From Aureimonas flava (lineage in GTDB: Bacteria; Pseudomonadota; Alphaproteobacteria; Rhizobiales; Rhizobiaceae), in contig NZ_QYRN01000009.1 of assembly GCF_003583935.1 (NCBI RefSeq), positions 124,001 to 188,000 on the forward strand: a stretch of 64,000 nucleotides of DNA, read 5' to 3'. The position numbers and the translations under genes are program-made. The notes under the pieces are model-generated. The model was not told where the DNA came from and searched no databases. It was given only the letters and a program-made list of their open reading frames with translations. This document shows positions 43,061 through 63,716 of the stretch, one piece after another (within the stretch, counting starts at the first letter, position 1; each line of letters starts with the position of its first letter).

Positions 43061-43094
43061 CGGTTGCCTCCCAAGCCTGGTGCGGCGGGTCCGC

Positions 43095-43559: not shown

Positions 43560-43624
43560 GTTCGTTGTTCCCTGGCTCGAAGAGGTCGTTGCGTTCCGGT
43601 CAGCGATGCGGGGAGGCCCCGGTG

Positions 43625-43981
43625 TCAAACCGTGGCTTCGCCGAAGTCCGGCAGGGTTCCGCCCACCTCGTGGAGGCCGATGCCGAGGAGCTCGAGCCCC
43701 CGGCACAGCGCGTCGGACGGGTTGACCAGGCTGAATTCCTGCCCGTCCGATTCCCAGCTCCGGGCGGCCGACAGGAGGATGGCGGCGCACTGCGCGCCGA
43801 TCCGCTCGACCTGGGCGCCGTCGACGATCACGGTGTCGCCGCGCAGGGCCAGGAGCTCGGCATGCAACGGCTTCGCCGCCCGGACGTCCAGAACCGGCGC
43901 GAGGGTCGCCTCTCCGTGCGCCGCGTCCGACGGGACTGCGAACGCGACGGGCTCGCCTTCGGACTGAAGTTCCTGCAGCAT
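43625..43981 (-). CDS. STAS-domain protein at the start of the chemotaxis operon
   Basis: A 118-residue protein with a STAS-like fold: [25 protein letters not shown] (about residues 46-70, where STAS proteins place the central Asp/Ser switch) and [21 protein letters not shown]. The usual phosphorylatable Ser position appears to be Gly/Ala-rich, so it may not be phosphorylated. A strong AAGGAG site precedes the ATG. First gene of the che operon; small STAS proteins at this position help CheA-CheY signalling in rhizobia, which is inference here. Confidence 0.75.
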
Positions 43982-44144
43982 CTTCGCTCCTTGCGTCCTG
44001 CGTGCCGACCATGCGTCGCTCGGGAAGGTCGGAACCGCGGGCTCGGACCGACTTTGTCCGGCAAGTTGTATCCTGCAAAGATTGACGAACGTTTGAGTGG
44101 GGACATCCCGGCGCCGCAATTCGGCCGCGGCGAACGGGGCGCAC

Positions 44145-44210: not shown

Positions 44211-44225
44211 TCACTCCCACTCAAT
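44211..44225 (-). other. guaA 3'-end remnant, candidate island attachment site
   Basis: Minus strand ATTGAGTGGGAGTGA encodes Ile-Glu-Trp-Glu-stop, the near-universal C-terminus of GMP synthase (GuaA). The codons before it do not encode GuaA, so only the last 15 bases are present. The 3' end of guaA is a known integration target of genomic islands, which leave such a partial copy at the far end. To the left is native GC-rich chromosome and the terminator; to the right composition changes at once. Confidence 0.72.
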
Positions 44226-44598
44226 TATCGGCCCCGATGCATAGGGCATTGAAAAGAAAAGCGAAAAAATTTTTTTGGCGCAAAAAGTCCGTCAGGGTCA
44301 GCGGCAAAAAAACTTGCTGATGAAAACATTGGACTTTTCCGACCCAGCGACCTCTGAAAAGTTCCGCCATCTATCGCTGATGACGGCGACGGAGCATTTT
44401 GAGGCCGCCAAGGACGAAAGTGCTCGCGAAAACCCCATCGTACCGACTCTGCTCACAGTTAGCGATCCACCTCGAAACGTCGCGGCCGCGACGCCTCACA
44501 ACAATGACGCATCAGGCAACTCGTTTTGCCGACTGCTCGCGCAGCGAATGCTTTGAGGATCGAACAGCTCTGCATCCCACAGCCATACCCAGCCCGCG
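44226..44598. other. AT-rich stretch between the island boundary and the SNF2 gene
   Basis: About 370 bases without a supported gene. It starts with long A and T runs (gcgaaaaaatttttttggcg region at about 44259-44278), the most AT-rich spot of the window. A plus-strand frame at about 44320-44556 lacks a good ribosome binding site and has no recognisable domain. The stretch may include the arm sites of the island attachment region. Confidence 0.45.
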
Positions 44599-47253
44599 CT
44601 ACCTTGCCTCGCTCGGAAGGAAGAGCATTTCTGGCCATGACCTCGGTCGCCGGAGCATGGGCACATGGAAGGAGAGGCCGGCGTCAAATGCCTCTTTAAA
44701 GCGTTCGATCACCGCCTCAGCGTCCTCTGTCACCGGCCCGGCACAAAGAGCACCTTTGACCGCGGGCGCGTTCATCAACTGCAACAGTTCCCAATCTCGC
44801 AAGACTTCGATCTTCCCGTCCTTCTCCGTCACGCCAAAAATCAGCCTATGGACGAGCGAACCGGTACCGGTGACTTCATCCTCAACAGCTAGGATCAGCA
44901 CCGGACCGCCAAGCCCATCGACGGAAGCGGCTCGCGCCGAAATGCCATGCGCATCGTCGAGCGCAATGTCGAACAGAGGATGACCGATCCCCAGGACCCG
45001 GGAGGCGGCATTGGCGCCACGGAGGCTGCGGTCGAAAACTAATCCCTCGTACTTATCCCGGAGCGTGTAGCTGCGCGCTTTCCAATCATCAGGAGTCCTA
45101 ATCTCCAGACCATCATCCCGCCGGAAAATCCGGCGCCCATGCCTGCCGACGGTTTGGGTGAAGAACCGCTCCAGGTCGGGAAGGTCGACCTTCGGCAGGT
45201 CCTTTCCGATTTGCTGAAAATCAAATCTCGACACGGAGCCCAGAAGCTCGCGCACAGTTTCAACCACGTCACGCCCGCCTAGGGTAGAAGTGGTGCGATC
45301 GAACCAGGCTCCCAATCGTTCGCCAGAAAGCCCTTCGCTCCCGGAGAAAAGCTCGTTGAAGAGCGAACTGCCAGCCATGCCTATGACCAACTGCGAAATA
45401 TCCTCCTGTTCCTCCATCACCGAGGAGAGAGCAGCCTGAATGCGCTCCAGCTTTGCATTGAGCAAATCCCAAATGCGAGCCTCAACGGTCTGGGGGTTTC
45501 GCAAAATATAGACCGAGACGGGCCGCGTCTGGCCATAGCGGGATAGACGCCCGACCCTCTGATGGAGTCGCATCGGGTTCCAGGGCATATCCGCATGGAC
45601 CAGTACAGCGCAGCGCTCTTGAAGGTCGATGCCTTCGCCGCCGGCCTCAGTGGACACGAGAAACCGCACTCTTCCCGTAATGAAGGCATCCGCAGCGTGC
45701 TCGCGGGGCTGGCTGACAATCTTTGCTGAGCCCGAAGGCTGATCAAGACCATCCAGCCGTTCGTCTCCGTTGATGAACGTTGCCGAACCAAACCCAAATC
45801 GGCGATGCAGCGCGTTAATGATAAGGGCTTGGGTTGCCTTGTATTCCGTGAAAAGCAGAATCGGCTCGTCAGGACCAAACTCCTCGCCGATCATCTGAAG
45901 CAGGCGCTCGATCTTGGTCTCTCGGGCTATGCCGTCGGCGAGAGCGATCAGTTCGTCGAGACGCTGTATTTCGTCCTCCATCAGCAGGACGGCAACAGAT
46001 CCGGGAAGCGCCTCTTCGGCTTCTGCCAAATCGTCAAACGTCGCCTGCTCCTCATCAGGAAGCGAGACAGACTCACTTGAACGACCAACGAGGTTCGCGA
46101 GCGTTGTTCGACGTTTACGGAGTGCATTGCGAATTGCCGCGATCGAACTTGCAGCCAGCTTCTGCAGTGTGATCAGCACGAGCATCCGGGCTGTCTGCGC
46201 ACGCCCTTCAAGGGTCGCGGCATAGGCCCTGCCGTCGATGACGAACTCGCTTAACGTCCGATAGAATTGTGTTTCATTGTTGTTATATTGGTATTCCCGA
46301 CTGAAGACGTTAACAGGCTTGAAGAGCTTTTGACCTTGGAGATCGGTGACAGTCGCCTTGTTGTTTCTGATCATAACTTTGGAAAGCTGAGAAAGCTGTT
46401 TTAGCGGGTCATGCTCCGGGTCGAAGAGGTCCGGCTGCACAAGGTGCATCAGGCCGAAGAAGCCGTAGTCTTTCCCACGATGCGGGGTTCCGGTGAAAAA
46501 CAGCAAGGAGTTGATCTTGCCCCGCTCCTGGAGCTCGGAGACAAGGCTGTATGCCAGCGTCTCGCCAGCGCGTTCATCCACACTGAGGTGGTGAGCCTCA
46601 TCAACAATGACCAAATCCCAGGGATCGGCGTCAAGGAGCCTTTGTCGCGCTCCACGACGGTCGTCTCGCAGCGTATGGAATGATGCGGCCACCATCGAAG
46701 CAGTTGCCCAGAAATCGCCGCGCGCCGTGTCCGCCTGCGTGACATAGCGTTGGAGCCGGATGTCGAACATATCCTTGAGGCGGAATTGCCACTGCGGCAC
46801 GAGCTTTGCCGGTGCAAGGATCAGCACGCGCCGCACACGCCCAGATGCGATCAACGGCATGAGGACAAGGCCGCATTCGATCGTCTTGCCCAGCCCGACG
46901 TCGTCAGCGACAAGCCAGCGGAAGGGCCATTCCTGGATTACTTTGCGGCAAACCCATAGCTGGTGAGGAAGCAACTGCACGCGCGAGCGAGAAAACACCC
47001 CCCACTGGTCATTGACCGATCGGATGGAAAGCGCCTGGGCACGGATCAGCGCATCTATGGGATCGGTGTCCGTGCCCGCGCGGAGAGCCGAGTATAGAGA
47101 CGGTATCTCGGAAATCTCGCTTGCCAGAACCTGCTCAACAGCCCCGCCAAAACGAACGACGACGGTGGCTCCCATATCCACCACGACGCGCCCATTGCCG
47201 TGACGAGGATGGTGAACGGGAATTCCGGCAGCCAATGCTGGTGTTTCCGTCAT
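44599..47253 (-). CDS. SNF2-family helicase (island operon gene 5)
   Basis: An 884-residue superfamily 2 ATPase related to SNF2/RapA proteins. A small N-terminal beta-rich module (residues 15-45, HHPRHGNGRVVVDMGATVVV) is followed by the first RecA domain with DDVGLGKT (117-124), DEAH (218-221) and FFTGTPHRG, and the second with FLVSTEAGGEGIDLQ and QRVGRLSRYGQ (565-575). The C-terminal about 280 residues are of unknown family. SNF2 enzymes translocate on duplex DNA. The ATG overlaps the stop of the sacsin-like gene. DISARM DrmD is also SNF2-like, but no other DISARM gene is here. Confidence 0.9.
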   Translation of the reverse strand: MTETPALAAGIPVHHPRHGNGRVVVDMGATVVVRFGGAVEQVLASEISEIPSLYSALRAGTDTDPIDALIRAQALSIRSVNDQWGVFSRSRVQLLPHQLWVCRKVIQEWPFRWLVADDVGLGKTIECGLVLMPLIASGRVRRVLILAPAKLVPQWQFRLKDMFDIRLQRYVTQADTARGDFWATASMVAASFHTLRDDRRGARQRLLDADPWDLVIVDEAHHLSVDERAGETLAYSLVSELQERGKINSLLFFTGTPHRGKDYGFFGLMHLVQPDLFDPEHDPLKQLSQLSKVMIRNNKATVTDLQGQKLFKPVNVFSREYQYNNNETQFYRTLSEFVIDGRAYAATLEGRAQTARMLVLITLQKLAASSIAAIRNALRKRRTTLANLVGRSSESVSLPDEEQATFDDLAEAEEALPGSVAVLLMEDEIQRLDELIALADGIARETKIERLLQMIGEEFGPDEPILLFTEYKATQALIINALHRRFGFGSATFINGDERLDGLDQPSGSAKIVSQPREHAADAFITGRVRFLVSTEAGGEGIDLQERCAVLVHADMPWNPMRLHQRVGRLSRYGQTRPVSVYILRNPQTVEARIWDLLNAKLERIQAALSSVMEEQEDISQLVIGMAGSSLFNELFSGSEGLSGERLGAWFDRTTSTLGGRDVVETVRELLGSVSRFDFQQIGKDLPKVDLPDLERFFTQTVGRHGRRIFRRDDGLEIRTPDDWKARSYTLRDKYEGLVFDRSLRGANAASRVLGIGHPLFDIALDDAHGISARAASVDGLGGPVLILAVEDEVTGTGSLVHRLIFGVTEKDGKIEVLRDWELLQLMNAPAVKGALCAGPVTEDAEAVIERFKEAFDAGLSFHVPMLRRPRSWPEMLFLPSEAR

Positions 47254-50200
47254 TCGCCAATACCCTCTATTTCGTCCTCGTCTTCCTGTTCATCGCCATA
47301 CTCCATCAGGTCTGACGGAGCGCCGCCAACCTCAGCGAAGCATGTTTCCAAAGCACCACGGTGCTTGCGCCGGGTAATCAACTGAAGCGGGAGATCGAAA
47401 TCGCCAACAAATCGACGGTCGTCTCCCAGATGTTTCGTTACGAAATCACAGATCGTCCGACTTGCTTCTTTGTCCGCCCGCTCGCCGACATCGGCGCCTA
47501 GTTCATTTAACAGAATACGCACGCGCCGAGATGGAGCCCAAACATAGGGAAGCATCAGGTGCTCATCGCGAGTCTCATAGGCGCCGTGGCGCAGCAGCTC
47601 ACGGAGCATCCAGTTCATGCCGATACCGAGAGAACGGTTTATCGGGGCGGCGTCGATGGAAAGGCGCATCGCCGGCGGCCAGTAGCTCGGCTGCAAGGCG
47701 CCATTGAGCGAAATGACGCCATGCTCCTCAATAATTCTCGGCAGCTTGACCGCAATCTCTCGATACTCATCCAGCCAACGGGCAACGGAATACAGATCGA
47801 CAAATGTGCGTCGCCACGTCAGATACTGCTGATCGAAATGATTGGGTGCACTCCATCGTTCGAGCCGTTCAAGCCAAGAGTGCACCTCATCGGGCGGCCG
47901 TGACTCGGACAATTCTTGCCACCAGCCTTCTCTGAAGCCAGCGTCGACAAAACTCTTGTGCTGCTCATCCTGCGCTAGGCCGAACGAATGGAAGCAGGCC
48001 AAGGCGAACATCGTGAACCATGCCGTGCGATCCTGTGACTCCCGAAGCTGCGACGGCGAGAAATCCCCCGGGTAGGCCCTCTCCGCGTATGAGGCGCGGA
48101 GGCTAGAGCCCTCGGCGCGCCACCAGGCGTGGATTGCCTTCAGGACCGTTGCAGGCTCAGGCGGGGGAGACTGAACAGACATTGGCGACAAGAAGGCATC
48201 TCGGCCCTGGAGGGCGTACAGGAGATCGTCCTTTTCCTTCTCCGTCCAGCCAGAGAGCAGCGGGCTGATCCGCAACTGCGACGAAGGCCAAGGCAGCCAG
48301 CCAGGGCGATGGCGGCGGATCTCATCACCCAATTCTCGGCCTTGGCGCCCCTCAATGACGTATCGGAGCGCTGCCGCTTGTCGGCCTTGGTCATCGTCCG
48401 GGATTTCCGCTGTCCAGCCGCCGAGATCACGCGTTTTAGGGCCGAAGCCCGATCGTTCGCGGGCGACCCGGAAAAACTCCAGTGCCGCGCCAGTATATTG
48501 CTTGTCGAGCAGATGCATCGCGGGCGCAAATGCGCATAGCCTGCGCTCTTCGGGGTCCTCGGCGGCATCGGGACTCGGAAGCTGAGCTATCCGCCATGCC
48601 CCGTCCTGTGCGAGGAACAATGCCTGCCTGGAAACGTCCAGAATCTCGTAAAGTTCGTTATCAAGCGGCGCTTCCCGAATAGATTGAGATGTAAGGGCAA
48701 GGCCGAGGGTCTTCGCCAAATCTGAACTGACATGCTTGTCTTCGCCGATCTGCTGGCGGAGAAGGCCTGCGAAGCGCAGTGGACGAATATTCCCAAAGCC
48801 GAGCTTTCTCAATTGCCCAGCTATATCGGATGATACCGTCCGGTCTCGTAGCTCCGTGAGGGCAGGCCAATCCTGTACTTTGGCGAGCATGAGAAGATCC
48901 GATAACGCGCCATCGACGAAACAGGCCGCGTCCGACGCCTTTATCAACAAAGCGAATGAAGGCGGCAGGCGGGTCGGCACGACCTGGCGCTGGTCTATGA
49001 GGTGGCCATATCCCCGACCATCGGCGTGCAGGTGCCGGGCCAGATCGTCGTCGAAATCCAGCGCGAGAACATCGAATAGGCGGGACCAGAAGGTGCTCCA
49101 CGCCGCTGTTCTAGAAGCGTCAGAGGCATCCAAGTCAAGGCTTTCCGCGAACCCGCGCCAGTCTGTGTCCGCGAGATCGTGCAGTTTCAGAAGGCGGTCC
49201 CCTAATGTCCGCCCTAGTGTTCGGAATTTCTCCGTCTGGTCAGCAATTGAGCCGGCCAGTCCTGTGCGTCCTGGATCGACAGCGAAAGGACCGTTGAGCA
49301 GCCAGCCAGAGCGGGACGGCACCTCGAGCGGGGCCAGGTTCCAGAGTCGATTCAGATCGTCGGGAAATCTACCTGGTCCGGCGGCATCAATATGCAGCAG
49401 AAGGGCAAACCCGAACGACAGATCGAAGCGCAGGGCTCGCTCGCGGCGCCCGCCTGACACGGAAACGACTCTGATCTGGCTCTCGCCGAGAAGCGGCAAA
49501 GACGAGCAATCTACGCTCGTGGGAACGTCGCCATCGATCTCGATGCGGCGAATTGTGCGGGCGAAAGCAGGCAGCCATGTCACGGCGGATTTGAACGCCG
49601 CCATCGCATCAGCGCCTTTGTCAGCCGTCTCCGCTGAAAGGGGAACTTCGATAACGGTCGCCTTTCGGCCGCCGGGGACTTTTTGCCTCTCTGCTATGTC
49701 GATGCCCGCCGGCCAGGGCGTCGGCAGAAAGCCGCCGGCCGTGCGCAGGGCGATGAAGCCGCTGGCGATGCCGACGCCGTCCGACAGCACATGGACGCTC
49801 TTGAAGCCCAAGCCAAACTTGCCGGTGAGATCGTCTCCGGGGCGTTTCTCGGAGAAGTTCATCAGCAGCATATTGAGCAGGTCACGATCGTGACCGACGC
49901 GACGCCCCTCCTCTGCGTCATGCCCCATGTGATTGATCGGGCGGCCCCAATGAACGACACGAAATCCACCTGGGTCGCCCGGTAGCTGCTCCACCCGGAA
50001 ACGGGCGTCCGATGCAGTTTCACAATGCTGCCGATAGGCATCGTCGGCGTTCTGGAACAGCTCGAAGAGAACCCGGCTGGCGGAATATCCGAAATCCCCG
50101 ATCTTGGCGCGAACCGCAGACAGAAGCTCGGCTGCCAGCGTGCTGTCGGATACTTTTCGCCATAGCTCCGCTTTCAGCTCTTCCATCTTCTGCGCCGACG

Positions 50201-53200
50201 CGGAAAGGTGATGGAGGTGGCTTTCCTCAGCTTGATACTCGCGTAGCGCCTTCTGTGTGCGGTAGTCAGTGGGGAGCTTCAACTCAGCGAGAATCGTGGG
50301 GAGCCGGTCTCGAAGCAACCGTTCAGTTTCCTCGATCGTCGATTGATCGACCTCAACCGCCCTGTCCAACATCTCCCGCAACGCCGTACGCTGGCTTTCC
50401 ATGCCGAGCCACAGACAGTCCGCCGCGACTGTCTCGACAAACCGCCGGAAGATGCCGCTGGCCTCTTTCTGACCGTATCCGCTCGGATCGACGTGCCTGA
50501 CTGGCAGCGTGATCAATGACCGCACTTTACCATCGGCGGCCCGGATGCCCTCATGGCTCTTGTGCAGATTCCCGACGAGGATTCCGTTGCCAGGACCACC
50601 CAATGGCGCATCGAACACATCCCCCGACAGGGCGACGGCTTGCACATGCTCGCCCGCGACCGGCACAATCAGGAACCGGCGTTGATCGACCTCATCCGCC
50701 AACGGGTTCGGATAGAGGATTTCTCTGGGAAAATGATTGTCGAGGTCAGCCCAAAGGGTATCGACATCGGCCGTCGCGTCGATCGCCCATTCGTTCGCAA
50801 GGCGCTGAAAGGGCTCGCTGCGGCCTATCAAGCCGAGATAGACAATCACCAGGTCGGACGGTACGCGCCCCCGCCATGTGGTGAGGAACGACCGATGCTG
50901 GTCTGCCCACTGGGGCTCCAACGCAGTCAGATCGACATCCATGATCTCTCCCCGGCGATGATCGGTTGGAGATGAGTCATGAACTTCATGTCCGGCGCCC
51001 TGCCTCTCGGCGAGTGCTGCCTCACGCTTTCCAAGCGTGGATGCGTAGTGCCGCGCCAATACATAATTCGGATCGAGCCCGTCACCGCCCTGGACGACTT
51101 GCCGGCCGCTGCGCCAATCTCCGGCCTCAGTAGGAACCAGCGTCTCACCGAACACCTGATAGCGAGTTTCTTCTCGCCAACGAGCGACGACGTTGAAGCC
51201 GTGGCGATAGGCTCTGCGGGCGGCCTCGCCTTTTCGCCCGTTTTCCGCCGCCAGCGTCGCCATGCGGTCGAGGTGGGTTCCTGCCAAATTTGTGTTGGAG
51301 GGGAGAATCTCCGCGAAAGCGGCGACAACCTTCATCGCGTCCCCGCCATCAGCCTCCGAGGCCAGAACCGCCGCTAGCAGAGGCCAACCGGGCAACCCAA
51401 CATCGCCGCTGTCTTTCGCCAATGTCGCAAAATCGTCTATCGGAAACTCATCCGCCGCTCCGAGGCGTCCGATGATGCCCGCATCCTCGATCATCAGCGC
51501 CAGGGCTCCGAATGACGAGCGTCTATCCGGAAGCACCCATTTCCCAAGATGATCGAATCCGCGATGCTCGCGCACATCGATGGCCAGCTTTGCAGCGGGC
51601 AAGAACGGCGGGTTTTCTCCATTCTTCAAAAGAAGCGCTCGCGCCGCTTCATCGACCGCTGGTGGAAGAGCGAGCACGTCCTGGGGCGCGACAGGCTGCC
51701 CGTCCGCCAGAAGCCACGGTTTGGCGCGAAGCGCATCAAGCCGGCGCTCATCGGGCGAAGATTCGAGCTTGGCGAGCGCATCCAGTACATCACCACGAAA
51801 GCGGTGTGGATCATCGCAACCGAGCGCGACCTCAATCTGGCTTAATGGCGACCACGCCCCAATAAGCTGCCCTTGCCGTTCCCTCGCCTTCTGGCTTCGG
51901 CATGGCTGGATGATGGAGACGACTGCCCGCAACGCTTCAGGAACAAGCCATTCTTTCGTCTCACGAAAGATACCCTTTCCATCGCCAACGGTTCCGTCCC
52001 GCCTTTCGTGAATAGGCAGCCGGATCAGCAGATCATCGGGCAGACCGGCCTCAAGGACGGCTTCCCGCTCTGAAACATCAGGGCTGAGTTGCTCGATGGC
52101 GGCGATACGCTTCTCGAACAACGCTTCCAGATTGGTCGCGTCGAGAACCTCAATACGAAGATGGTTTCGTTGCGTCCTGGACAGTCCATCGGCTATGCCG
52201 GTTGGGACAAGAAATTCGTTCTGGCTCTCGGCAATTAGAGCCGTGGTAATACGCTCTATTCGTTTCAGGTTCGGGTCTAGGGTCCAGAGCTTTGATACTG
52301 AATATCCCGCCTCACGACTACCGACACACAGACGCCGGGCGGCGGCTGGATCGTCTTTGCTGTCGATTCCAATCTCATCGAGTAGCCGTTGGCGGGCGCT
52401 TATCGGCCCAAAGCTCATGGCTTTGTCGATGAGCGAGAACGCGGCCTCCTTACCCGCCGACTGAAGCGTGAGATTCGCCACGTCTCGAAGGAAGGGCATC
52501 GCACCGCTATCGACGATCAGCGGGGATGCGCCTGGTAATGCCTCCACGAGTAAAGGCAGCCATGTGTTTGCTTGAGGAGAGTTGGAGAACAAGAGTCCGG
52601 TTCTGGAGCGCTCAACAAGTGCTTGGAGTGACAGCACAATCGGGCCACGGATACGGACATCCCGCACACGCAGAACCTTGATGGATGCGAAATCGGGATC
52701 ACGCGCCAATTCGGAGATACTCCGCTCGGCCTGAGCGAGCAGCGCCAACGCGGTGGTAGCCGCTTGATCCGCCTGATCGCCTTCAAGCAGCGGTTCGAGT
52801 GCGGTGAGCAACGTCTTGAGGTCTTCATCGGATAGTCGGGGAGGACGTCGGCTATCGTCGAGCCATTCGCCTCGAACTGGCAGGATATTCGCCGGGACAC
52901 ATGCCAGCGCCCGCAGGACTTGCCGGTTTTCGACAGATAGCGGAAGCGGGAACAACGCGCTGTGGGGAATGTGGGCAAGAGCCGATTTAACGAGTTCGGA
53001 CGGAGCAAGCGTATGAGTTTCCGCCATTGCTGTCCGCAAGGCCGCGACTATGTGCGGCCCGATCACAGAATCCTCGGCATCGCCGAGCATCGCTATGTCG
53101 AGGAAATCGACGAGGAGTCGCGAGAGATCGCGTGACTGAAACGCACGCGGCGATAGGCCGGAAAATACTGCGCCAAGGTCTTCCCCGGTCCAGCGTATCG

Positions 53201-54761: not shown

Positions 54762-56082
54762 AGGCGCATCCTGCCAATTCCCGGACCATCGGCTCTTCAC
54801 TCAAGAACAAGTGCCTCAGCCGCGTCATCATGTTGGTGCTGTTCGACACATCGATGCTTGCTGTCTCCAGGATAGTGGCGTGTCCCGTAATGCGATGGCG
54901 TGCGTGAACCACACCTTCGTGTCCGAGCCCTGGGTGGTGGGGGTAAAGCAACGTCAAGCGCGGGGCGTGATAGAGCTGCGCATAGGCCATCATCTGATAG
55001 ACGTCAGCCTGCGAGACGCCTTGCTTCGGATCATCGATCCGCGAGGCTATCCGCTTCCATTTGGTATCGATGACATGGGTTACCATGCCACCTTTGCGGA
55101 TTAGGATATCGGGCTTGGTCTGGAACAGTCCGCGTTCGCTGTCCTGCGCGCTCAGGCAGAACAGGCGTCCGCCTTGCAGCGAGACGGTGAGGCCCGTTCC
55201 CGCCAGCGCACGGGCGATCAGCCGACCGACATATTCTTCAAACAGAGCGTTCATCTCGAACAGCATCGCGGTGCCCTGGCCGGCGCCGCCCGTAGTTGTC
55301 TGATAACGATCCTGCAAAAAGAGACGGGCCATGGCGAACAGCTCTTGCCACGACCGATTGGTGCGATCGATGACGACCTCGTCCCAGCGCAACGCCGCGA
55401 TCGGCACCTCGCTGATACCGGCATAGACGAAGGCGAGTTCGCGCAGGCGTTGCTGGTTGGCGCTGCGCCGCGAGAGACGCAACAGGCGGACCACCGCCGC
55501 CTTCATGATCCGGTTGAGCGGAGTATCTTCCGATAGGAGATCGAAGCGGCAGGCAAGACGCGAGGGATTGACCGCATGGCGCGTGAACTGGCGCGTGATG
55601 TCGAGCTGACCACGCATGGTCGGCAAGTCTTCTTCGTGCCCGACATAGCGACGCGGCATGCCCTTCCGAAGAGCTTCCGTCAGCTTTTCGCAAAAGATGC
55701 GGATTAAGATTTCGAGCAGGGTTTCGCGCTGCCAGGCGAGATCCGTGATGACGCCGAGGTCGATCTTGAGATCGAGCGCCACCGCCAGCATATGGACCAG
55801 GCGTTTGCGGATCGCCGCATCCTGGTGATCGCGTGTTTCACCGGGCGCAACATCGATCTTGGGCAATATCTCCAGGCTTGCATCGCCCGCCGCCAGAATT
55901 CCGACCACGCCGCGGGCGCGCAAGGCGTGCCGACCATGTTCGAGTACGCCGCTACCGCCCCGGCCGGCAAAGGCCGAGCGCGCCGCCAACCCCGCCATTC
56001 GGTCAGCGTGGCGGGCCGGAATCTGCCCGTCGCCTTCGCCATAGGCGAGCTTGTCCCATTCACGAACCGTGTAGGCGGGCAT
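54754..56082 (-). CDS. McrC-like PD-(D/E)XK endonuclease subunit (island operon gene 3)
   Basis: A 442-residue McrC family protein. The N-terminal half has the beta-rich McrC domain (VLEHGRHALRARGVVGILAA) and the segment MRGQLDITRQFTRH common to the family. The C-terminal nuclease domain shows Asp325 in TKPDILIRKGG and Asp339-Thr-Lys341 in HVIDTKWKRI, a complete PD-(D/E)XK site, with a following Gln-rich helix (DVYQMMAYAQLY). McrC cuts DNA when driven by the McrB ring. The start codon shares one base with the mcrB stop (TGATG). Confidence 0.93.
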   Translation of the reverse strand: MPAYTVREWDKLAYGEGDGQIPARHADRMAGLAARSAFAGRGGSGVLEHGRHALRARGVVGILAAGDASLEILPKIDVAPGETRDHQDAAIRKRLVHMLAVALDLKIDLGVITDLAWQRETLLEILIRIFCEKLTEALRKGMPRRYVGHEEDLPTMRGQLDITRQFTRHAVNPSRLACRFDLLSEDTPLNRIMKAAVVRLLRLSRRSANQQRLRELAFVYAGISEVPIAALRWDEVVIDRTNRSWQELFAMARLFLQDRYQTTTGGAGQGTAMLFEMNALFEEYVGRLIARALAGTGLTVSLQGGRLFCLSAQDSERGLFQTKPDILIRKGGMVTHVIDTKWKRIASRIDDPKQGVSQADVYQMMAYAQLYHAPRLTLLYPHHPGLGHEGVVHARHRITGHATILETASIDVSNSTNMMTRLRHLFLSEEPMVRELAGCAYA

Positions 56083-59000
56083 CAGGCTGCAAAATCCGAG
56101 AAATCGAAACTGGCTTTCACACTCCAGCGCCGCTTGTCTCCGCCCAGTTCATCATCAGCAAAGCCGGATGGAGTCGGAAGACTCATTGATTCCAGGAAAT
56201 GGGCGCCGTTGGTACCGTCACCATCGCCGAGCACTACGGCGACCTTCGACCAGTCCTCATAGAAATACTCGGCCAAAAGCGGGATGATCTTGTGGCGCAT
56301 GACATCCTCGACATCAGCTCGGGAGCTGCATCCGGTAAAATAGGCGTGACCGATCTGGTGCTCGCGATCGAAGAGATATTCGATCCGCTCATTGAGGGTG
56401 TGCAGCAGCTTGCACAGATCAATCCCGTCGAGATTTTCCGCATCAAGCTGCCGCGCCGCCAGCGCCCGGCGAAGCTCTGAAACGTCCGGCATCAGCTCGC
56501 GGAAGGTGAAGCGGCGACGCAGGGCGGTATCGAGCAGCGCGATCGAGCGATCCGCAGTGTTCATCGTTCCGATGATATGCAGATTGGCAGGCACGCCGAA
56601 TTCATCGCCTGAATATGGCAGATGCACCTTGATGGCGTTGGGTTGCCCCAGGCGCTTGTCCGGCTCCAGCAGCGTGATCAATTCGCCGAAGACCTTGGAA
56701 ATGTTGGCCCGGTTGATTTCGTCGATAATCAACACGAAGGCTTCGCGTTCAGCGTCGGCGTCAGCTTCCTTGATCGCGCTGTTCATGTAGCGCTCGAGGG
56801 CCGGAATATTGAGGCGCTCCTTCCTCAGCCCGTAAAGCGACCGCATCGTGAAATTGCCGTCATAGACCTCGGTGACTGGCACGCCGGCAGCATCGTGCCA
56901 AAGCCAGCGCACGGCACGCCTGTGGCCATAGTTCCCCTCTGGCCGCGGATGATATTCATAAGGGCCAGTCACCTCGCCTATGGCGCGGATCAACCGATTC
57001 CCTTTCGACACGACAATGATGTCGCCCGGCTTGAGACGATTCCGAAACGTATCGGTGATCGACACCTGGCCAGACTGCAATGTGACCGGCCCTTCGATCT
57101 TGCCCTTTTCCTGGCACGTTTTCAGGATTTCCTCGGCATCCTCGTACTTCGGGTCGCTCCAGTCGATGTCTTCCCAACTCAGCAGCGTGTAGCCACCCTC
57201 GATCACTTCCTCGAAGAGTTCCTGATCGCCGGCGTCCCGGCTAAAGCCGACCGACATCTTGTAGATTTGGCGGCCATCACTCGTGATCCGATTGCTGATC
57301 GCCGTTTTGCCCAATCCGGTCTCGGCCCGCTTCGCAATGCGCCGGAAAATCCCGGGCACCGTTTCCAGTCGGAACCCTGCTGACGATGCGCCTTCGTCGT
57401 CATCCGATCCTGTCATGGGCTGGCGACCCTCGACAAAATCCTCGTAGGCCATCGACTGGTGAAATGTGACGAACTCGATCCGGCCTTCGCCGGCAAGACG
57501 GCGATACTCGGCCATCAGGGCATCGCGATCATCGCGCACCGGCTCGGCCGCGGCGTCACCCAGACAAAGCCGCACGGCCTCCCAGGCCGTGGCATAGGTC
57601 TTGCCGGTCCCCGGGGGGCCGTAAAGGATGAGATTGGTGGCGGCGGGCATTGCGGTCATGGGTTCAAAGGTCATGGGTTGGCGCCCTTCCGCTGAGGCGA
57701 GCTGATAGGTGAAAACGGTGGAGCTGCTGGGATTGGGCTGGGTGTGCGTTGGCGCGGGGACGCGGGCGCTTTCCTGGAACTTCGCGCCGCCGAGAGCGCT
57801 GCAAATGGCCGGATGCGCATTGTCCAGACCCATTTCGCGACCGAGAGTGCCCGCGCGGATCGAAACCTCTGCCGCGCCGTTCTCACGGGCCGGCTCGATA
57901 TAATAGTTGAGCGCGCATAGCCGGATGCGATCGGCATCGCCGATCAGATGCTGATAGCGCTCAGGCGGAGTGACCGGCATGTCATCGCCATCGACGATGA
58001 TGTAGCCGGCATTGTGGAGCTGGGCGGCTGCATCCGCCTTCTGTCCCCAACCGCCATTGAGCTGCGTCTTGCCGCGCAGGAAGCCGACGATCGGCTTCGA
58101 AGGGTAGACCCGATTGGGCCGCTCGCGTGTCGAACGGACCCAATAGTCGCGTGGCTCGCCGAATGCGTCGAAGATCGCGCTGTGCTCGCCCGACTGGCGG
58201 TAGCTGTCATAGGCGTCAAATGCCGCTTCGATCGCTTCGCGCGAAAAGGTAGCCGCGTTCTCTTCCTTGTAATTGTGGACGATCCACAGCGCGCCTTGCA
58301 CATCGATCATGTCGCGCGGCGCCAGACCCTGGGACGAAAAGGCACAGCGTACAGCCTGCATGAAGCGCAGTTCGTCACGGTAGGTGTCGGCCATCGACGC
58401 GTTGTCGGGAAACCGGCTGCCCACAGCTTCCAGCCAGAGGTCTTGGCGCACGGAATGGCGAATGTAGATACCGTGATCGGGAGCGAGATGAAGGAACAGA
58501 AACTCCGCAATCTGTCGTGCCGGATCGGGTTTGCCGTCCGGAACCGCTGCGATCCAGGCGCTGACAAAGGTCTCCAGCGCTGAGGCGTGGCTTTCCGACG
58601 CGCCGAGCGCCGCATCTATGAGCGTGCGCAAGGCTGGCCAGAGCTTTTCGCGATTCGCATCCCCCTTGGGCGACATCGGCCAATAGGCGCGCCATTGCAG
58701 AAGGTTGCTTTTAGCCAGCGCGGTATTGACGGCGTCGGCCAGTTCCTGATCGGAGCCCGCCTGCGTGATCGCAGCCTTGAGGTCGGCCGCGATCTCCAGC
58801 TTGTAGATCCGTTCCGCCTCGTCGAAATGCGGATCCGGCCGGTCGAAACGGTCGAGTGCAGGAAAGAAATGGCGCAGCCGCTCGATCCAGCGCGTGATCG
58901 CAGCCGGGTTGAGCATCAACGCATCGCCCGACTGCGACAGCACCGCGATCAGACGGCGCAAGGCTTCGGCGCTTTCGATCCGCACGACAAAACAGTCTGC

Positions 59001-59321
59001 GTCGCCAAAAGACCAGTCGCGGCTGAGGGCGGAATGCCGTCCGCCATCCTTCATGCCACTCTGAAAGGGCCGTGGTTCGCTGGAAAAGCGGTTCGCCTCA
59101 ACCAGATCGCGCCATTTCGCGTGGAGGAAGACGTTGGCCGGGTTCTGGATTTCCCACAGCAGATGATCGCCCGCGCCGAACTTGAAGGCCACCATCTTCT
59201 TGGTGACCCCGTCGCCGGGGCGCAGAGCCGAGCCGCGCAAAACCTCGAAAAGCGCACGGCGCAGCGGTAAGGGACGCTCCCGCTCATTCTCCTCGAGGCG
59301 CGCCTCGAAACTCTCCCACAT
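56082..59321 (-). CDS. McrB-like AAA+ GTPase with inserted EVE-like domain (island operon gene 2)
   Basis: A 1079-residue protein. The AAA+ domain has Walker A GPPGTGKT (568-575), Walker B IIDEINRANISKVFGE (about 865-880) and the McrB signature MNTADRS (920-926) with ALRRRF. Between them, about residues 689-795, is an inserted module ending GDIIVVSKGNRLIRAIGEVTG (from 766), which looks like the EVE/PUA-type domains that read modified bases. The 550-residue N-terminus is of unknown family and could be the target-recognition part. It starts directly after the stop of gene 1, with no gap. Confidence 0.92.
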   Translation of the reverse strand: MWESFEARLEENERERPLPLRRALFEVLRGSALRPGDGVTKKMVAFKFGAGDHLLWEIQNPANVFLHAKWRDLVEANRFSSEPRPFQSGMKDGGRHSALSRDWSFGDADCFVVRIESAEALRRLIAVLSQSGDALMLNPAAITRWIERLRHFFPALDRFDRPDPHFDEAERIYKLEIAADLKAAITQAGSDQELADAVNTALAKSNLLQWRAYWPMSPKGDANREKLWPALRTLIDAALGASESHASALETFVSAWIAAVPDGKPDPARQIAEFLFLHLAPDHGIYIRHSVRQDLWLEAVGSRFPDNASMADTYRDELRFMQAVRCAFSSQGLAPRDMIDVQGALWIVHNYKEENAATFSREAIEAAFDAYDSYRQSGEHSAIFDAFGEPRDYWVRSTRERPNRVYPSKPIVGFLRGKTQLNGGWGQKADAAAQLHNAGYIIVDGDDMPVTPPERYQHLIGDADRIRLCALNYYIEPARENGAAEVSIRAGTLGREMGLDNAHPAICSALGGAKFQESARVPAPTHTQPNPSSSTVFTYQLASAEGRQPMTFEPMTAMPAATNLILYGPPGTGKTYATAWEAVRLCLGDAAAEPVRDDRDALMAEYRRLAGEGRIEFVTFHQSMAYEDFVEGRQPMTGSDDDEGASSAGFRLETVPGIFRRIAKRAETGLGKTAISNRITSDGRQIYKMSVGFSRDAGDQELFEEVIEGGYTLLSWEDIDWSDPKYEDAEEILKTCQEKGKIEGPVTLQSGQVSITDTFRNRLKPGDIIVVSKGNRLIRAIGEVTGPYEYHPRPEGNYGHRRAVRWLWHDAAGVPVTEVYDGNFTMRSLYGLRKERLNIPALERYMNSAIKEADADAEREAFVLIIDEINRANISKVFGELITLLEPDKRLGQPNAIKVHLPYSGDEFGVPANLHIIGTMNTADRSIALLDTALRRRFTFRELMPDVSELRRALAARQLDAENLDGIDLCKLLHTLNERIEYLFDREHQIGHAYFTGCSSRADVEDVMRHKIIPLLAEYFYEDWSKVAVVLGDGDGTNGAHFLESMSLPTPSGFADDELGGDKRRWSVKASFDFSDFAA

Positions 59322-62300
59322 TCAACGATCTCCAAAATCAGGCAAGGCGCACAGCGTGTTTACGAGGCGCATCTGTTCGACGGTGTCGCATTTGGCTTCA
59401 CGCAACCGCGGCGCACCGAAAACGAGCGCCAGGCCTTTGGCGCGAGAGACGGCGACATTGATGCGGTTGAGCGAGAACAGGAAATCCATGCCGCGCGGTA
59501 TCTCCTCGACAGAGGAAGCGGTCATGGACACCAGGCAGACGGGCGCTTCCTGCCCCTGGAACTTGTCTACCGTGCCAACACGGATGGCAGCGGACAAAGC
59601 GTCCTGCAGCGCATTGACCTGGGCATTGTATGGCGCGACGACGATGATGTCGGCGGGCCCGAGCGGGCGTGTCTTCCCTTCCTTGCCAGTCCAGCTGCCC
59701 GACAGCAGATCGTCGATCGTCGCCTTGATCGCGGCGACTTCCTCGGCCGCGATCTGGGCATTGCCTTCATGCACGATCGGCATCCAGAAGGCGCCGGCTT
59801 GGGCACATCCCGTCCCGCGCACGGCCTGGTTCGCAGTATCAGGCTGGCTCGCCAGTCGACCTTCATAGACCTGCCGCGAAATAAATCCGCACACATCGGG
59901 GTGCATCCGGCGCGAGACCGGCAGGAAGATGCCGCGATCGGACGGGATGGTAGCGTGATCGCCCAACATCCATTCCAGGCAGGAGAGGTTGGCCGGATCG
60001 GGATGCGCGCCCTGGATCACCTGCGGCAATTGACGGGGATCGCCGACCAGCACGATGTTGCGCGCACACCGGCCCATGGCGACCATATTGGCGAGCCCCA
60101 CCTGGCCGGCCTCATCGACGAACAGCCAATCTAGCGCCTGTTCCTGTTCGGGCCGGGCAAAAAAGAAGGCCGTGCCGCCGACCACATGGGCACGGCTCCA
60201 TAGGGGATCGTCATTGGCGGTCGAGCGGATGACGCCGACACAGCTTTCGGGGTAACCGTCCTCGCCGCCGCTGACCTTGTGGGCGATGCACAAGCCCCGG
60301 ACAGGTTCGCCATCCTCTTGGGCGGCAAGACATCCCATCAGCACATTTCGGACGGCCTCATGGCTGTTCGAGGCGACACCCACGCGCTGGCCCTGGCGCA
60401 CCAGCGACAGAAGCGCCCGGGCGGTGACATAGGTCTTGCCAGTCCCCGGCGGCCCCTGGATCGGCAGCACGGTGCCGTCCATGGCGGCGATCGCCGCGAT
60501 CGTGCCCGTCAACGGGTCCGCGCCGTCGAGCAGGTCGGCGCGCGGCCCCGTTGTAAGTCGCGGCGCGGCCCGACCAAGCAGATCATCGAGCGCGGTCAGA
60601 CGGCGTGGGCCGCATTGATCGGCGATCACATCGCGCAGGGCGGCGGCGATGACGTCGGTGCTCAGCGGCCAGTCGGGATGCAGCGTCAGGCGATCCGTCA
60701 GAAGATGCGCCTTGGCGGGTCCGGCCTTGACCGCGATGATCCGCGCGGTACGGTCGAGATCTTCAATGCTGACACTGGCCGGCGGACCATCGACGACCGG
60801 GACGGTCGCGCTGCGGCCGGCGCGCAGCTTGGTCTCCTGCTGCGGGAAGAGATAGCGGCGCATCATGGAGCGTTTGACCGGTACAGCGGGGCCGATCGCC
60901 TCAAGGCCGGCCAGCGCATCGAGGTCGTCGATCAGATCGTCCTCGTCCTTGCCGGCGCTGTCGAAGACTGCCCATTGCGCCGGCTTGGCCTCGCGCTTGT
61001 GGAACAGGCCGAGATTGAACAACATCTCCTGTCGGTCCTGCGGCAGGCCGGAAGCGACGAGACTGGCGCGCAGGCCTTGCGTATCGGCATCTTCCTCGAC
61101 TTCCTTGTCGCTGGCGTCGACCGCCAGCACCGGCCAGGGCGCCGCAGGCCGGATGTTCACCAGCCAGTCGCGCAGCTCCTCGGTCGAGACGCAGTCGACA
61201 CGATTATAGTCCTCGATTTCATCGAGGATCGATTGCTCACCGGTTTCGCGCCAACGCTCATAGGCGACGACCGAGCCGCCTGCGGTCTTCACTTCACCGA
61301 CGCGCACCCGGCCGTAGAAGGCTTCCATCGACTTGATCGAATAATTGGCTTCTGAACCAATGAGCCCACCACGCACCACCGCGAAGAGATCGACAAAGCG
61401 CCGTTCGCGCAGCAGACGATCGAGGAAGGCCTCGCCGATCCCGTATTTGGCGGTCAGCCGCCGCATGGCGGTGATCTCATAGGGCGCATAGTGATAAATG
61501 CGCGCCTCGGGATAGGCCGTGAGCCGCTGCCGGAAGAAATCGAGAAGCTCGGACAAGGCCCGCGCCTCGGCGGCATGATCATGCGCCCAGAATGCCTTGA
61601 ACTGGCCGTCGAGCCAGACGCCGTGCAGATATTCAAGGCCGCCCTCGTAGTGCGGGTCGCCCTCGATATCGTAGAAGATGTCGCCGGGCTGCGGCGCCGG
61701 CAGGAGATCGAAGCCCTTGCCAGGTTCCGCCTCACGCAATTCAAAATCGGGCGTCCCGGTCTTGCGGGCATGTTGCAGCCGGGCCTGCGTCACGAGGCGG
61801 GCTCGGGTGTTGTCGGCCATGCCGCGGACGGAATGGTCGAGTCCGGCCAGCGCCTCCATGGTCGTGACGCCCGCCGCTTCGAGCTTCTTGATCTGGCTAC
61901 GGCTGATATTGGCGACGTTGAACAGGCTATCCTCGGCCTGCCACTGGCTCTCGCAATGATCACCCCAGCGGCACAACGCGCAGTCGGCGCAAGGGACGGG
62001 CCGGGTCGGCGCCAGGTTTTCCAGGAAGCTTTCGAGCCGGCGGCGCGCCATGCGGGCATAGGCCTGATAGTCGGCGAGGCGCAGGCGCGCACGGCTGCCA
62101 TCGCCCAGCTCGACATGGGCAAACTCGGGAGCGACGCCCTGAATCTGCGTCAGCAGGTCCGAATAGAGCACCAGCTGAAGCACATGTTTGGGATGAGGAC
62201 GTCGCTTGAGCTTGGTGTCGGTTACTTCATAGCTGAAGGGGCCAAGATCCGATGGGCGCTCGACACGTTCGAGAAAGTCCGACCAGCCGCCCCAATTGTC

Positions 62301-62681
62301 GCCGAGCAGCGCCCCCTGGAAGACAATCTGCGGACCGCCCGCCAGAGCCGCGCGGGTCGCCCGTGCGTTGTCGGCGAGATCGGACCGCGCGATCTCCACG
62401 ACCGATACGCCCGAGGCTTTGAGCTTGGCCAGGTGCGCCGCTTCATGAGCATCGCCCTGTTTCTGGAGCAGAGCCGCATCATCGCTATCCGCGCGGGGCA
62501 CGAGGCCTTCGCCGCGCATATGGGTGAGGTCGAGTGCTGTCGCGTGGGCGCAGCCCATGAACCGCATCAGATCCGATGCGGACAATAATATTCGGTCCCC
62601 TTCGATACTTCGCACTACCACCCCCTGTTCGAGCGCAATCGCGACAAGACTTGCATCTCGACAGATTGCCAGTTCAGCCAT
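59322..62681 (-). CDS. TM0106-type nuclease-helicase fusion (island operon gene 1)
   Basis: A 1119-residue protein with three enzymatic parts. (a) A Cas4/RecB-like nuclease at about 35-245: Cys44, His79, Asp134, Asp155-Thr-Lys157, Gln169 and a Cys cluster (231, 234, 237, 243) for an iron-sulfur site. (b) A DEDD-type exonuclease domain (FYDIEGDPHYEGG at about 335, later DCVSTEELRDWL). (c) An SF1 UPF1/DNA2-like helicase with GPPGTGKT (743-750), VDEAGQV, GDPRQLPQV, TVDKFQGQEA and RINVAVSRAKG. ATG at 62681 is preferred to a TTG at 62699 because the TTG lies inside the palindromic operator. Confidence 0.92.
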   Translation of the reverse strand: MAELAICRDASLVAIALEQGVVVRSIEGDRILLSASDLMRFMGCAHATALDLTHMRGEGLVPRADSDDAALLQKQGDAHEAAHLAKLKASGVSVVEIARSDLADNARATRAALAGGPQIVFQGALLGDNWGGWSDFLERVERPSDLGPFSYEVTDTKLKRRPHPKHVLQLVLYSDLLTQIQGVAPEFAHVELGDGSRARLRLADYQAYARMARRRLESFLENLAPTRPVPCADCALCRWGDHCESQWQAEDSLFNVANISRSQIKKLEAAGVTTMEALAGLDHSVRGMADNTRARLVTQARLQHARKTGTPDFELREAEPGKGFDLLPAPQPGDIFYDIEGDPHYEGGLEYLHGVWLDGQFKAFWAHDHAAEARALSELLDFFRQRLTAYPEARIYHYAPYEITAMRRLTAKYGIGEAFLDRLLRERRFVDLFAVVRGGLIGSEANYSIKSMEAFYGRVRVGEVKTAGGSVVAYERWRETGEQSILDEIEDYNRVDCVSTEELRDWLVNIRPAAPWPVLAVDASDKEVEEDADTQGLRASLVASGLPQDRQEMLFNLGLFHKREAKPAQWAVFDSAGKDEDDLIDDLDALAGLEAIGPAVPVKRSMMRRYLFPQQETKLRAGRSATVPVVDGPPASVSIEDLDRTARIIAVKAGPAKAHLLTDRLTLHPDWPLSTDVIAAALRDVIADQCGPRRLTALDDLLGRAAPRLTTGPRADLLDGADPLTGTIAAIAAMDGTVLPIQGPPGTGKTYVTARALLSLVRQGQRVGVASNSHEAVRNVLMGCLAAQEDGEPVRGLCIAHKVSGGEDGYPESCVGVIRSTANDDPLWSRAHVVGGTAFFFARPEQEQALDWLFVDEAGQVGLANMVAMGRCARNIVLVGDPRQLPQVIQGAHPDPANLSCLEWMLGDHATIPSDRGIFLPVSRRMHPDVCGFISRQVYEGRLASQPDTANQAVRGTGCAQAGAFWMPIVHEGNAQIAAEEVAAIKATIDDLLSGSWTGKEGKTRPLGPADIIVVAPYNAQVNALQDALSAAIRVGTVDKFQGQEAPVCLVSMTASSVEEIPRGMDFLFSLNRINVAVSRAKGLALVFGAPRLREAKCDTVEQMRLVNTLCALPDFGDR

Positions 62682-62693
62682 AGCGTGCGTGGG

Positions 62694-62714
62694 TGTCAAT
62701 ATCTGACATAGTCA
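62694..62714. promoter_or_regulatory. overlapping palindromes between the divergent island genes, candidate WYL operator
   Basis: TGTCA atatc TGACA is a perfect inverted repeat, and TGAC ata GTCA is a second one sharing bases with it. They lie in the 51-bp gap between the start of the nuclease-helicase gene (62681) and that of the WYL regulator (62733), where both promoters must be. An operator here would let the regulator control itself and the operon. Confidence 0.6.
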
Positions 62715-62732
62715 ACGGCCGGGATTTGGATC

Positions 62733-63716
62733 ATGTCGTTCGCCAAGGCTCAGGATCTCATCAGGCTGGCGCGGCTGGCGGCCACCCGCCGGACCGGAAT
62801 CGGCCTCGATGAGATCTGCGAGGAATTCGACATCTCGCACCGCACGGCACAGCGCATGACCGACGCGCTCGAGACCGTGTTCACCAATGTAGAGGTGATG
62901 GATGGACCCGATCGCCGGAGACGCTGGCGCGTCGCTGACACGATGCTCGACCGGCTCCAGACCCGCCCGGAAACGGCGATTGAAGCCTTGGAGATCGCCG
63001 GCAGGACGGCGCGCGGCGATGGCCGGCTGCGCCACGCGGCGGCGCTTGAGGATCTACGCGACGGATTGCTGGCCCGCCTGACGACCAAAGACGCCCTGCG
63101 CACCGAAACCGATGTTGAAGCCGTCCTCCTCGCGATGGGATCGGTCACCCGGCCCGGTCCACGGGTCAATCTGACGCCGGCGGTGCTGGATGCGGTGATC
63201 GAGGGGCTGCGCGGCCCGTTCCGCTTGCGGTTGCGTTACGGGACCGAGGATGCGCCCGAACGGATCATCGAGCCGCATGGCCTCTTGCTGGGCCACCGCA
63301 GCTATCTCGTGGCGCGCCAACCGGCGCGCGGCGGCGACATCCTGAATTTCCGGATGGACCGTATCCTGAGCGCCCAGACGCTGGACGAGAGCTTCAGCCT
63401 GGCGCCAGGCTTTTCGCTGGAGAACTATGCGGCGCAATCGTTCGGCGTCTACCAGGACCCGGCGCAATATGACGAGGTCATCTGGCGTTTCGCGCCACAC
63501 GCCGCAGCGCGGGCGGCCGAGTTCTGCTTTCACCCGAAACAAGCAGTTGAACCGCAGGAGGATGGCGGTCTCATCGTGCGCTTTCATGCGGCGGGCTGGC
63601 TCGAAATGGCGTGGCATCTCTATCAATGGGGCGATGCGGTCGAGGTCATCGCGCCCGATGGCCTGCGCGCCCTGATCGAAAACCACCGCAGGAGTGATTT
63701 CGACGCCCTGCCCTAA
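62733..63716 (+). CDS. WYL-domain transcriptional regulator
   Basis: A 327-residue protein with an N-terminal winged HTH (about 1-60: IGLDEICEEFDISHRTAQRMTDAL), a WYL domain around residues 165-225 (ERIIEPHGLLLGHRSYLVAR) and a C-terminal WCX region. WYL regulators such as BrxR and CapW repress defence operons until a ligand, probably nucleic acid, binds. It is divergent from the five-gene operon and shares its promoter region. The gene downstream follows after 26 nt. Confidence 0.92.
   Translation: MSFAKAQDLIRLARLAATRRTGIGLDEICEEFDISHRTAQRMTDALETVFTNVEVMDGPDRRRRWRVADTMLDRLQTRPETAIEALEIAGRTARGDGRLRHAAALEDLRDGLLARLTTKDALRTETDVEAVLLAMGSVTRPGPRVNLTPAVLDAVIEGLRGPFRLRLRYGTEDAPERIIEPHGLLLGHRSYLVARQPARGGDILNFRMDRILSAQTLDESFSLAPGFSLENYAAQSFGVYQDPAQYDEVIWRFAPHAAARAAEFCFHPKQAVEPQEDGGLIVRFHAAGWLEMAWHLYQWGDAVEVIAPDGLRALIENHRRSDFDALP

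Follow-up and report, generated by a model that had tools for sequence, protein, structure and literature searches.

A probable composite anti-invader operon of Aureimonas flava joins an McrBC-type unit to a sacsin-like giant and its SNF2 partner

The window analysed here is a stretch of 64,000 nucleotides from Aureimonas flava (assembly GCF_003583935.1, contig NZ_QYRN01000009.1, positions 124,001 to 188,000 of the forward strand). Between its positions 44,599 and 63,716 lie six intact genes, namely a minus-strand operon of five genes, in which every junction abuts or overlaps, and a divergent WYL regulator. Judging from sequence comparisons, this locus is probably a mobile, composite operon against invaders, put together from two defence modules that are inherited independently. 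Module A consists of the WYL gene, a TM0106-family nuclease/RNase H/superfamily 1 (SF1) helicase, McrB and McrC, and it occurs without module B, which consists of a sacsin-like giant with two GHKL ATPase sites and an SNF2-family ATPase. What is new is less the five-gene set than the pair of giant and SNF2 protein with the modular partners that accompany it. A first-pass annotation of the window had proposed the locus as a single five-gene candidate system; the modular make-up, the stand-alone pair, the EVE/YTH-fold insert in McrB and the links with integrases were absent from it.

Independent occurrence of the two modules

Relatives of the giant were sought with an alignment of 18 giants, by scanning one genome per species and requiring the GHKL motifs. 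The best 80 of the 157 relative-encoding stretches gave 74 distinct loci, and one locus from the viral collection (L080, the only one there) brought the number to 75, in which the identical sequences L019 and L020 are both counted; since the scan relies on the GHKL motifs, loci that have lost them are under-counted. No giant locus was found in phage records. The full five-gene set with its WYL gene, in the order of the window, is present at only 2 of these 75 loci, L007 (Rhizobiales AFS050986) and L008 (Novosphingobium naphthalenivorans), which by their titles belong to different orders. The proteins of the set are 85-92% identical among the three genomes, except for McrB (71-73%). A tyrosine integrase lies 0.5-1.4 kb downstream of the SNF2 gene at both L007 and L008, and these two integrases are 94% identical to each other, so in both genomes the composite is probably mobile as a single unit. 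The idea of the five genes as one conserved system did not hold, each half being found without the other, and the outcome named in advance as its refutation, that the genes would not be found together elsewhere, did not come about either, since two further genomes carry the set. Recurrence across unrelated taxa in conserved order, which had been expected of the whole operon, is strong for the giant + SNF2 pair alone and fails for the full set. What stands of the multi-gene defence operon is that it is probably directed against invaders, as the joint of two modules instead of a single system.

Module A was found on its own in several backgrounds. Among 385 genomes of the class, eight besides the window's own encode an McrC at least 46% identical, and a full-length giant was found in none of the eight, with at most two candidates scored per genome (G065 gave only a weak GHKL match). 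At L082, a WYL gene diverges from TM0106-McrB-McrC at 87-91% identity; the contig ends beside McrC, and the genome gave no giant in the same screen. L081 has McrBC by itself, immediately adjoining the 3' end of guaA. A plasmid of Rhizobium daejeonense carries WYL and TM0106-McrB-McrC, as does pRL1 of R. leguminosarum, where no annotation covers McrC and its sequence is read in two pieces that overlap; a plasmid of Aminobacter aminovorans carries TM0106-McrB-McrC with WYL matches in two pieces, and one of Sphingobium herbicidovorans carries McrBC without TM0106 or WYL within the stretch read. Eight plasmid records encode an McrB of at least 60% identity and seven have the giant, and no record belongs to both groups. 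The divergent WYL gene beside TM0106 is seen again at L007, L008, L082, L094 and L096. WYL/TM0106 is also located 8 kb from the pair at L002, and at L068 TM0106 lies 2 kb upstream of the giant on the opposite strand.

Similarly, the giant + SNF2 pair was found without module A. An SNF2 gene of the same subfamily as the window's (>150 bits) is present at 64 of the 75 giant loci, and at 63 of the 67 that have at least 2.5 kb of sequence downstream. Four plasmid loci (L002-L005) came from a search with SNF2 and are excluded from the counts based on 75; at all four the SNF2 gene is paired with a giant. Of the 79 loci taken together, 62 have a co-directional SNF2 gene that overlaps the giant or lies no more than 100 bp from it. 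At L072 it is on the strand opposite the giant, at L057 and L067 it is about 0.8 kb off, and four loci have no SNF2 gene despite sufficient flank: L018 and L022 (in both, the giant open reading frame (ORF) ends early), L023 (551 amino acids (aa)) and L075 (giant in two ORFs). The distances among giants and among SNF2 proteins are correlated (r 0.90 for 49 sequences including the window's), and none of 999 permutations gave a value as high.

According to record titles, the pair occurs in Pseudomonadota, Acidobacteriota (Vicinamibacteria, Bryobacterales), Planctomycetota, Chloroflexota, Cyanobacteriota and Desulfobacterota (Desulfobulbaceae, Desulfobacteraceae), on Deinococcota plasmids, and in single metagenome-assembled genomes (MAGs) labelled Actinomycetota, Bacillota and Neomarinimicrobiota. 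This amounts to about ten phylum labels, where the phylum of each class is the one we presume it to have and MAG labels may be wrong. The pair is rare and patchy: in screens that scored at most two candidates per genome, the window's own genome was the only one to yield a full-length giant, both among the 385 genomes of the class and among 398 genomes of the phylum. Besides it, the class screen gave an N-terminal piece in G060 and weak GHKL matches in three others.

The surroundings of the pair vary. No co-directional neighbour lies within 120 bp in 26 of the 47 pair loci with enough flank (L002-L005 included), and of the 47 pairs for which 1.5 kb or more of upstream sequence is available, just L007 and L008 have McrC there; many of the 75 giant loci have short flanks. 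The genes attached to the pair number 26 (12 upstream, 14 downstream), of which 13 encode at least 368 aa. Ten large ones were scanned with PADLOC models, leaving out the McrC genes of L007 and L008, one gene of L002 and the 13 smaller genes, and all ten match at 1e-8 or better. They include a large SF1 helicase of model PDC-S68 three times, upstream or downstream (L025:20352-24215, L029:6148-9909, L077:6029-9853), and a pAgo gene 20-30 bp upstream of Planctomycete pairs (L037:8346-9956, L047:8407-9966); the other matches are to NucS-like PDC-S11 (L003), ZorA (L014), DruE (L029), PglZ (L063) and a generic helicase (L037). Of eight other long neighbours, four match Type IIG/DrmMI, DruE, DrmA or helicase models and four match nothing. 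In a control scan over the first 44 kb of the window, a PADLOC match was obtained for 1 ORF out of 26. Among the nearest neighbours (107 of 109 picked proteins of 200-900 aa, the two McrC neighbours being left out), phage integrases account for six, and genes less suggestive of defence are also present, such as those for ribonucleotide reductase, a xanthine dehydrogenase-type protein and transposases. On Trichormus plasmid C (L005:14399-42490), the pair, with its giant in two ORFs, is separated by about 5 kb from a DISARM cluster, in which a further gene is annotated as DrmD.

The proteins of the operon and their island

The ORF coordinates confirm the layout given by the first-pass annotation, that is, five minus-strand genes in the order of Table 1 with the WYL gene facing away. 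The nuclease/helicase and McrB genes abut (59322/59321), position 56082 is common to McrB and McrC, the giant starts at 54761 inside the McrC gene, whose stop is at 54754, and the giant and SNF2 genes overlap (47253/47250). Family scans agree with its naming of the domains (McrB-type AAA, PF10117, SACS twice, SNF2 with Helicase_C, WYL with WCX). None of the five enzymes has lost any of the catalytic motifs searched for, and both GHKL sites of the giant are intact.

Table 1. Genes of the locus, their parts and the candidate island edge, in window coordinates
Feature	Position	Strand	Basis or remark
WYL-WCX transcriptional regulator	62733..63716	+	PF13280, PF25583; divergent from operon
TM0106-family nuclease / RNase_H_2 / SF1 helicase, single protein	59322..62699	-	TIGR03491 265 bits, PF13482, PF13087
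RecB/Cas4-like nuclease part of TM0106 protein	61680-62582	-	TIGR03491 RecB-like nuclease match, residues 40-513
RNase_H_2 domain of TM0106 protein	61158-61679	-	residues 341-514, within TIGR03491 match
SF1 helicase part of TM0106 protein	59412-60500	-	AAA_11/AAA_12
McrB-like AAA+ GTPase, long N-terminal region	56082..59321	-	PF07728; PRK11331 118 bits
EVE/YTH-fold insert in McrB, residues 676-849 (predicted)	56775..57296	-	fold comparison
McrC-like PD-(D/E)xK nuclease subunit	54754..56082	-	PF10117 245.6 bits
Sacsin-like giant, 2503 aa, two GHKL ATPase sites	47250..54761 (longest ORF to 54800)	-	two SACS stretches
GHKL domain 1 of giant, residues 23-137	54390..54734	-	ELLQNADDA at 45, GKFGFGQK at 111
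GHKL domain 2 + Hsp90-type middle domain of giant, about residues 1560-2009 (predicted)	48774..50123	-	structure model
SNF2-family ATPase, RapA/BrxH/DrmD group	44599..47253	-	PF00176, PF00271
guaA 3'-end-like remnant (PIIEWE-stop)	44211..44231	-	candidate attachment-site remnant at island edge

The TM0106 protein, which has an alternative ATG start at 62681, contains the motifs DTK, CADCALC...C (a cysteine cluster), YDIEGDP (the DxE start of RNase H), GPPGTGKT and VDEAGQ. McrB has Walker A (GPPGTGKT) at residue 568, Walker B (LIIDE) at 864 and the NxxD motif as NTADRS at 921, and the McrB structures of T. gammatolerans and E. coli top two of its match lists, one of them from Foldseek. The McrC active site reads PD...DTK (residues 324-341); McrC matched no PADLOC model.

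The insert in McrB sits between Walker A (57597-57620) and Walker B (56718-56732). In fold comparison its predicted model resembles the EVE/YTH type, which would give the window McrB the modified-base reader domain of McrBC Type IV restriction. The fold comparison alone was informative here, as the insert matched no Pfam family and its best match among solved structures by sequence had E 0.49, which is chance level. Between relatives, the insert is either 71-100% or 21-36% identical, with no values in between, and the adjoining stretches are 62-99% identical. The insert looks like an exchangeable specificity cassette, with sharply different alleles on well-conserved flanks.

The longest ORF of the giant, whose residue numbering is used here, begins with GTG at 54800 and encodes 2516 aa. 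The ATG at 54761 gives 2503 aa, the length reported in the first-pass annotation, and fits the two closest homologues, each of 2503 aa. SACS is the only Pfam family matched (PF25794, 94.6 bits against a cut-off of 32.8), and NF047352 scores 113.9 bits against a cut-off of 50, which identifies sacsin domains. GHKL domain 1 matches the profile of sacsin SR1 (E 4e-17), the second half is modelled as an Hsp90-type ATPase with the transducer/middle domain following GHKL, and the C-terminal region is long and helical. Both GHKL sites are kept in 50 relatives. A HEPN site was considered near the end, where there is an Arg-x4-His spacing, and was rejected, the spacing being lost from the alignment consensus (judged by eye). 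In the plasmid records examined, the giant is annotated merely as a hypothetical protein.

Several variant forms of the giant were also seen. N-terminal-only forms (L019:9252-10952, L023:10001-11656 and G060:C78:9243-10856) are 59-66% identical to it and match up to residue 547-556; that of L019 is at a contig end and that of L023 adjoins an IS66 transposase. They may represent decay or a free-standing GHKL protein. On Sphingomonas plasmid pC33 (L002:17400-17760) the giant is split into two ORFs (1607 and 799 aa); the break falls in the second GHKL region, beside a run of G. Haematobacter plasmid pOT1-5 (L098:1-12300) carries TM0106 (74% identical over the 481 residues read), then a 1405-aa protein with a SACS match below the cut-off, and then a 2103-aa giant without SNF2. 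An identical giant is found in a second genus, in Paracoccus (L022, 121-7661), where the end piece of the 1405-aa protein has a NOV_C match below the cut-off.

The SNF2 protein matches PADLOC PDLC02634 'DrmD' at 836 bits (residues 10-828 of 884) and the BrxH models at about 244 bits, and RapA tops the list of its solved relatives. The DrmA model scores 165 bits, amid other SNF2 models among the best 25 of 51 families. No SNF2 orthologue was found in 20 genomes of the same genus, three of which gave matches at E 1e-30 or better with 29-32% identity.

The guanine-cytosine (GC) content, in 2-kb steps, is 0.67-0.74 up to 44 kb and 0.57-0.66 over the rest of the window, so that the island is lower in GC than the chemotaxis genes on its left. 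These genes (cheD, cheB, cheR and a CheW-domain gene, window 40087-44144) form the left border. The guaA gene of the strain, whose last codons read TIEWE-stop, is located near the beginning of contig C4 (G000 C4:1-2464), adjoined by an integrase-like ORF (judged by eye), and the 12-base repeat AAAAGTCCGTCA is near both the guaA-like remnant of the window and this guaA. It is suggestive only, but the island may have been inserted at guaA, with its middle absent from the assembly. In a comparison made to look for an empty site, a cheW match was present in 2 of 5 genomes and never beside guaA, the nearest being about 192 kb (G387) and about 1.5 Mb (G396) away.

Proposed mechanism and competing explanations

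In the proposed mechanism, module A would be a modification-dependent (Type IV) restriction unit. McrB would recognise modified bases through the exchangeable EVE/YTH-fold reader inside its GTPase, GTP-driven McrB would move the DNA, McrC would cut it, and the TM0106 protein would process the ends left by the cut; the WYL protein encoded divergently probably acts as repressor. The giant may be an ATP-gated clamp like those of Hsp90 and topoisomerases, in which the two GHKL heads of a single chain, or those of a dimer, probably close together. The RapA/DrmD-like SNF2 ATPase may move on duplex DNA or displace a phage nucleoprotein complex. The pair would sense or hold invading DNA, exposing it to whichever nuclease module adjoins. 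Cooperation between the two modules is somewhat unlikely. As for the pair itself, it is a tenable proposal, at rather less than even odds, that it is an undescribed system in its own right. Equally tentatively, it can be pictured as a widespread two-gene immune system, in which a single-chain, two-headed Hsp90-type clamp and a RapA-like motor pass captured DNA to interchangeable nucleases (McrBC, TM0106, NucS-like, Argonaute); in the five-gene operon one of these partners, a restriction unit with a swappable reader, would then have been transcriptionally coupled to the pair.

Closest to the composite operon is the explanation that two unrelated defence systems are stacked in one transcription unit with a shared WYL switch and no interplay, which overlaps with our reading except as regards cooperation. 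It is a serious contender though not the favoured one: each module exists alone, the pair adjoins many different defence genes, and defence islands gather unrelated systems; on the other hand, the overlaps of McrC with the giant and of the giant with SNF2 suggest coupled dosage, and TM0106 and a sacsin giant occur together in another arrangement at L098. The opposite extreme is one integrated system of interdependent genes, in which McrBC detects, the giant clamps, the SNF2 and SF1 motors move and TM0106 degrades. The close junctions, the gene order shared by the window, L007 and L008, the nearly identical integrases near the set in the last two and the TM0106 gene upstream of the sacsin giant at L098 are consistent with it, but it is unlikely in view of the scarcity of the set among giant loci, the genomes with a close McrC and no full-length giant, and the pairs that have no co-directional neighbour. 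These same solitary pairs argue against an accessory derived from DISARM or BREX, a DrmD-like helicase with a chaperone that modifies other systems. Such an origin would explain the DrmD and BrxH matches of the SNF2 protein, the DISARM cluster near the pair at L005, and the DrmA-, DruE- or PglZ-type genes near or beside the pair at L028, L011, L029 and L063; however, the SNF2 protein misses the cut-off of the NCBIfam DISARM_DrmD equivalog (267.8 against 610), and L005 has a DrmD of its own besides the SNF2 protein of the pair, which makes this explanation improbable too. Least credible by far is a housekeeping or stress function, with a sacsin/Hsp90-like chaperone and a RapA-like ATPase that recycles RNA polymerase. 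The place of RapA among the solved relatives and the Hsp90 and sacsin folds of the giant agree with it, whereas the rarity and patchiness of the giant, the integrases among the nearest neighbours and the defence genes that adjoin the pair do not.

Several observations weigh against the composite anti-invader operon itself. GHKL and SNF2 proteins also have roles as chaperones, in repair and in transcription, PADLOC already files this SNF2 family under DISARM DrmD, and no nuclease domain was found in the giant or in the SNF2 protein. Since the set is known from three genomes only, with proteins 85-92% identical, it may reflect one recent joining without shared function. The giant has no SNF2 gene at L075, where it is split, or at L022 and L098, where it is shorter; the correlation of the giant and SNF2 distances is what any co-inherited pair of genes would show. 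The ten scanned neighbours are the larger of the 26 attached genes, and several of them code for helicases, which give matches to many models; the 26 ORFs of the control come from a single chromosome region and are not size-matched, and McrC itself has no PADLOC match.

If the pair is immune in function, a sacsin/Hsp90-like giant with an SNF2 motor would be a recurrent prokaryotic immune unit. Chaperone-type GHKL clamps would then be tied to phage defence, which would offer a testable reason for the presence of sacsin-like ATPases in bacteria. In addition, the alleles of the McrB EVE/YTH cassette would form a naturally occurring set from which the specificity of Type IV restriction for modified bases could be read.

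Comparison with known systems

No named system with the pair or the full set was found in PADLOC 2.0 (2023), NCBIfam (2026) or open-licence PubMed Central (PMC) full text, and the core genes tested of DISARM and BREX are absent, in line with the earlier statement that the set differs from named systems, including these two. The SNF2 group is common to the window protein, DISARM DrmD, BREX BrxHII and RapA; in contrast to DISARM and BREX, its constant partner here is the sacsin-like giant. Membership of DISARM was rejected, with no DrmB or DrmC among the listed matches of the six proteins (for the SNF2 protein, the best 25 of 51 families), and so was membership of BREX, with no PglZ, BrxC or PglX among the listed families, where the only BREX match is that of BrxH helicase models to the SNF2 protein.

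The giant shares a GHKL/sacsin-type ATPase with TmtA of PADLOC, which we take to be Tiamat. The best match is 74.9 bits, within residues 27-440 or 1571-1681, and none of the eight TmtA models matches the giant at full length (best stretches about 36-405 of 2516 residues). The TmtA profiles have 1063-1655 positions as against the 2503 aa of the giant, which has two GHKL sites and an SNF2 partner. The GHKL ATPase fold is also common to eukaryotic sacsin, Hsp90/TRAP1 and topoisomerase VI B, and the second half of the giant is like the N-terminal and middle domains of Hsp90; unlike these proteins, the giant is bacterial, paired with SNF2 and extended by a long helical C-terminal region.

ARMADA and other systems with YprA helicases are DISARM-like cassettes that can adjoin McrBC, according to the available text of PMC12458937. 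They differ from the window in being based on the YprA helicase, and the terms GHKL, sacsin, Hsp90 and DrmD are all absent from that available text. CoCoNuT systems are derived from McrBC, and some have SF1 helicases and YTH-like domains (PMC11090510, available portion); membership was rejected here, as the window McrB has NxxD (NTAD) and CoCoNuT NxD according to the same portion. The nearest likeness of module A is to McrBC Type IV restriction, described in the accessible parts of PMC7641849 and PMC11090510 as an McrB GTPase with NxxD, an McrC nuclease and a reader of the EVE superfamily; the window likewise has an McrB with Walker A, Walker B and NxxD and an adjacent McrC with a PD-(D/E)xK site. 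The GTPase domains of McrB often have inserts that are likely specificity domains (PMC11090510, same parts). What distinguishes the window is that a TM0106 nuclease-helicase and a WYL regulator accompany McrBC, and that its putative reader comes as sharply different alleles between conserved flanks.

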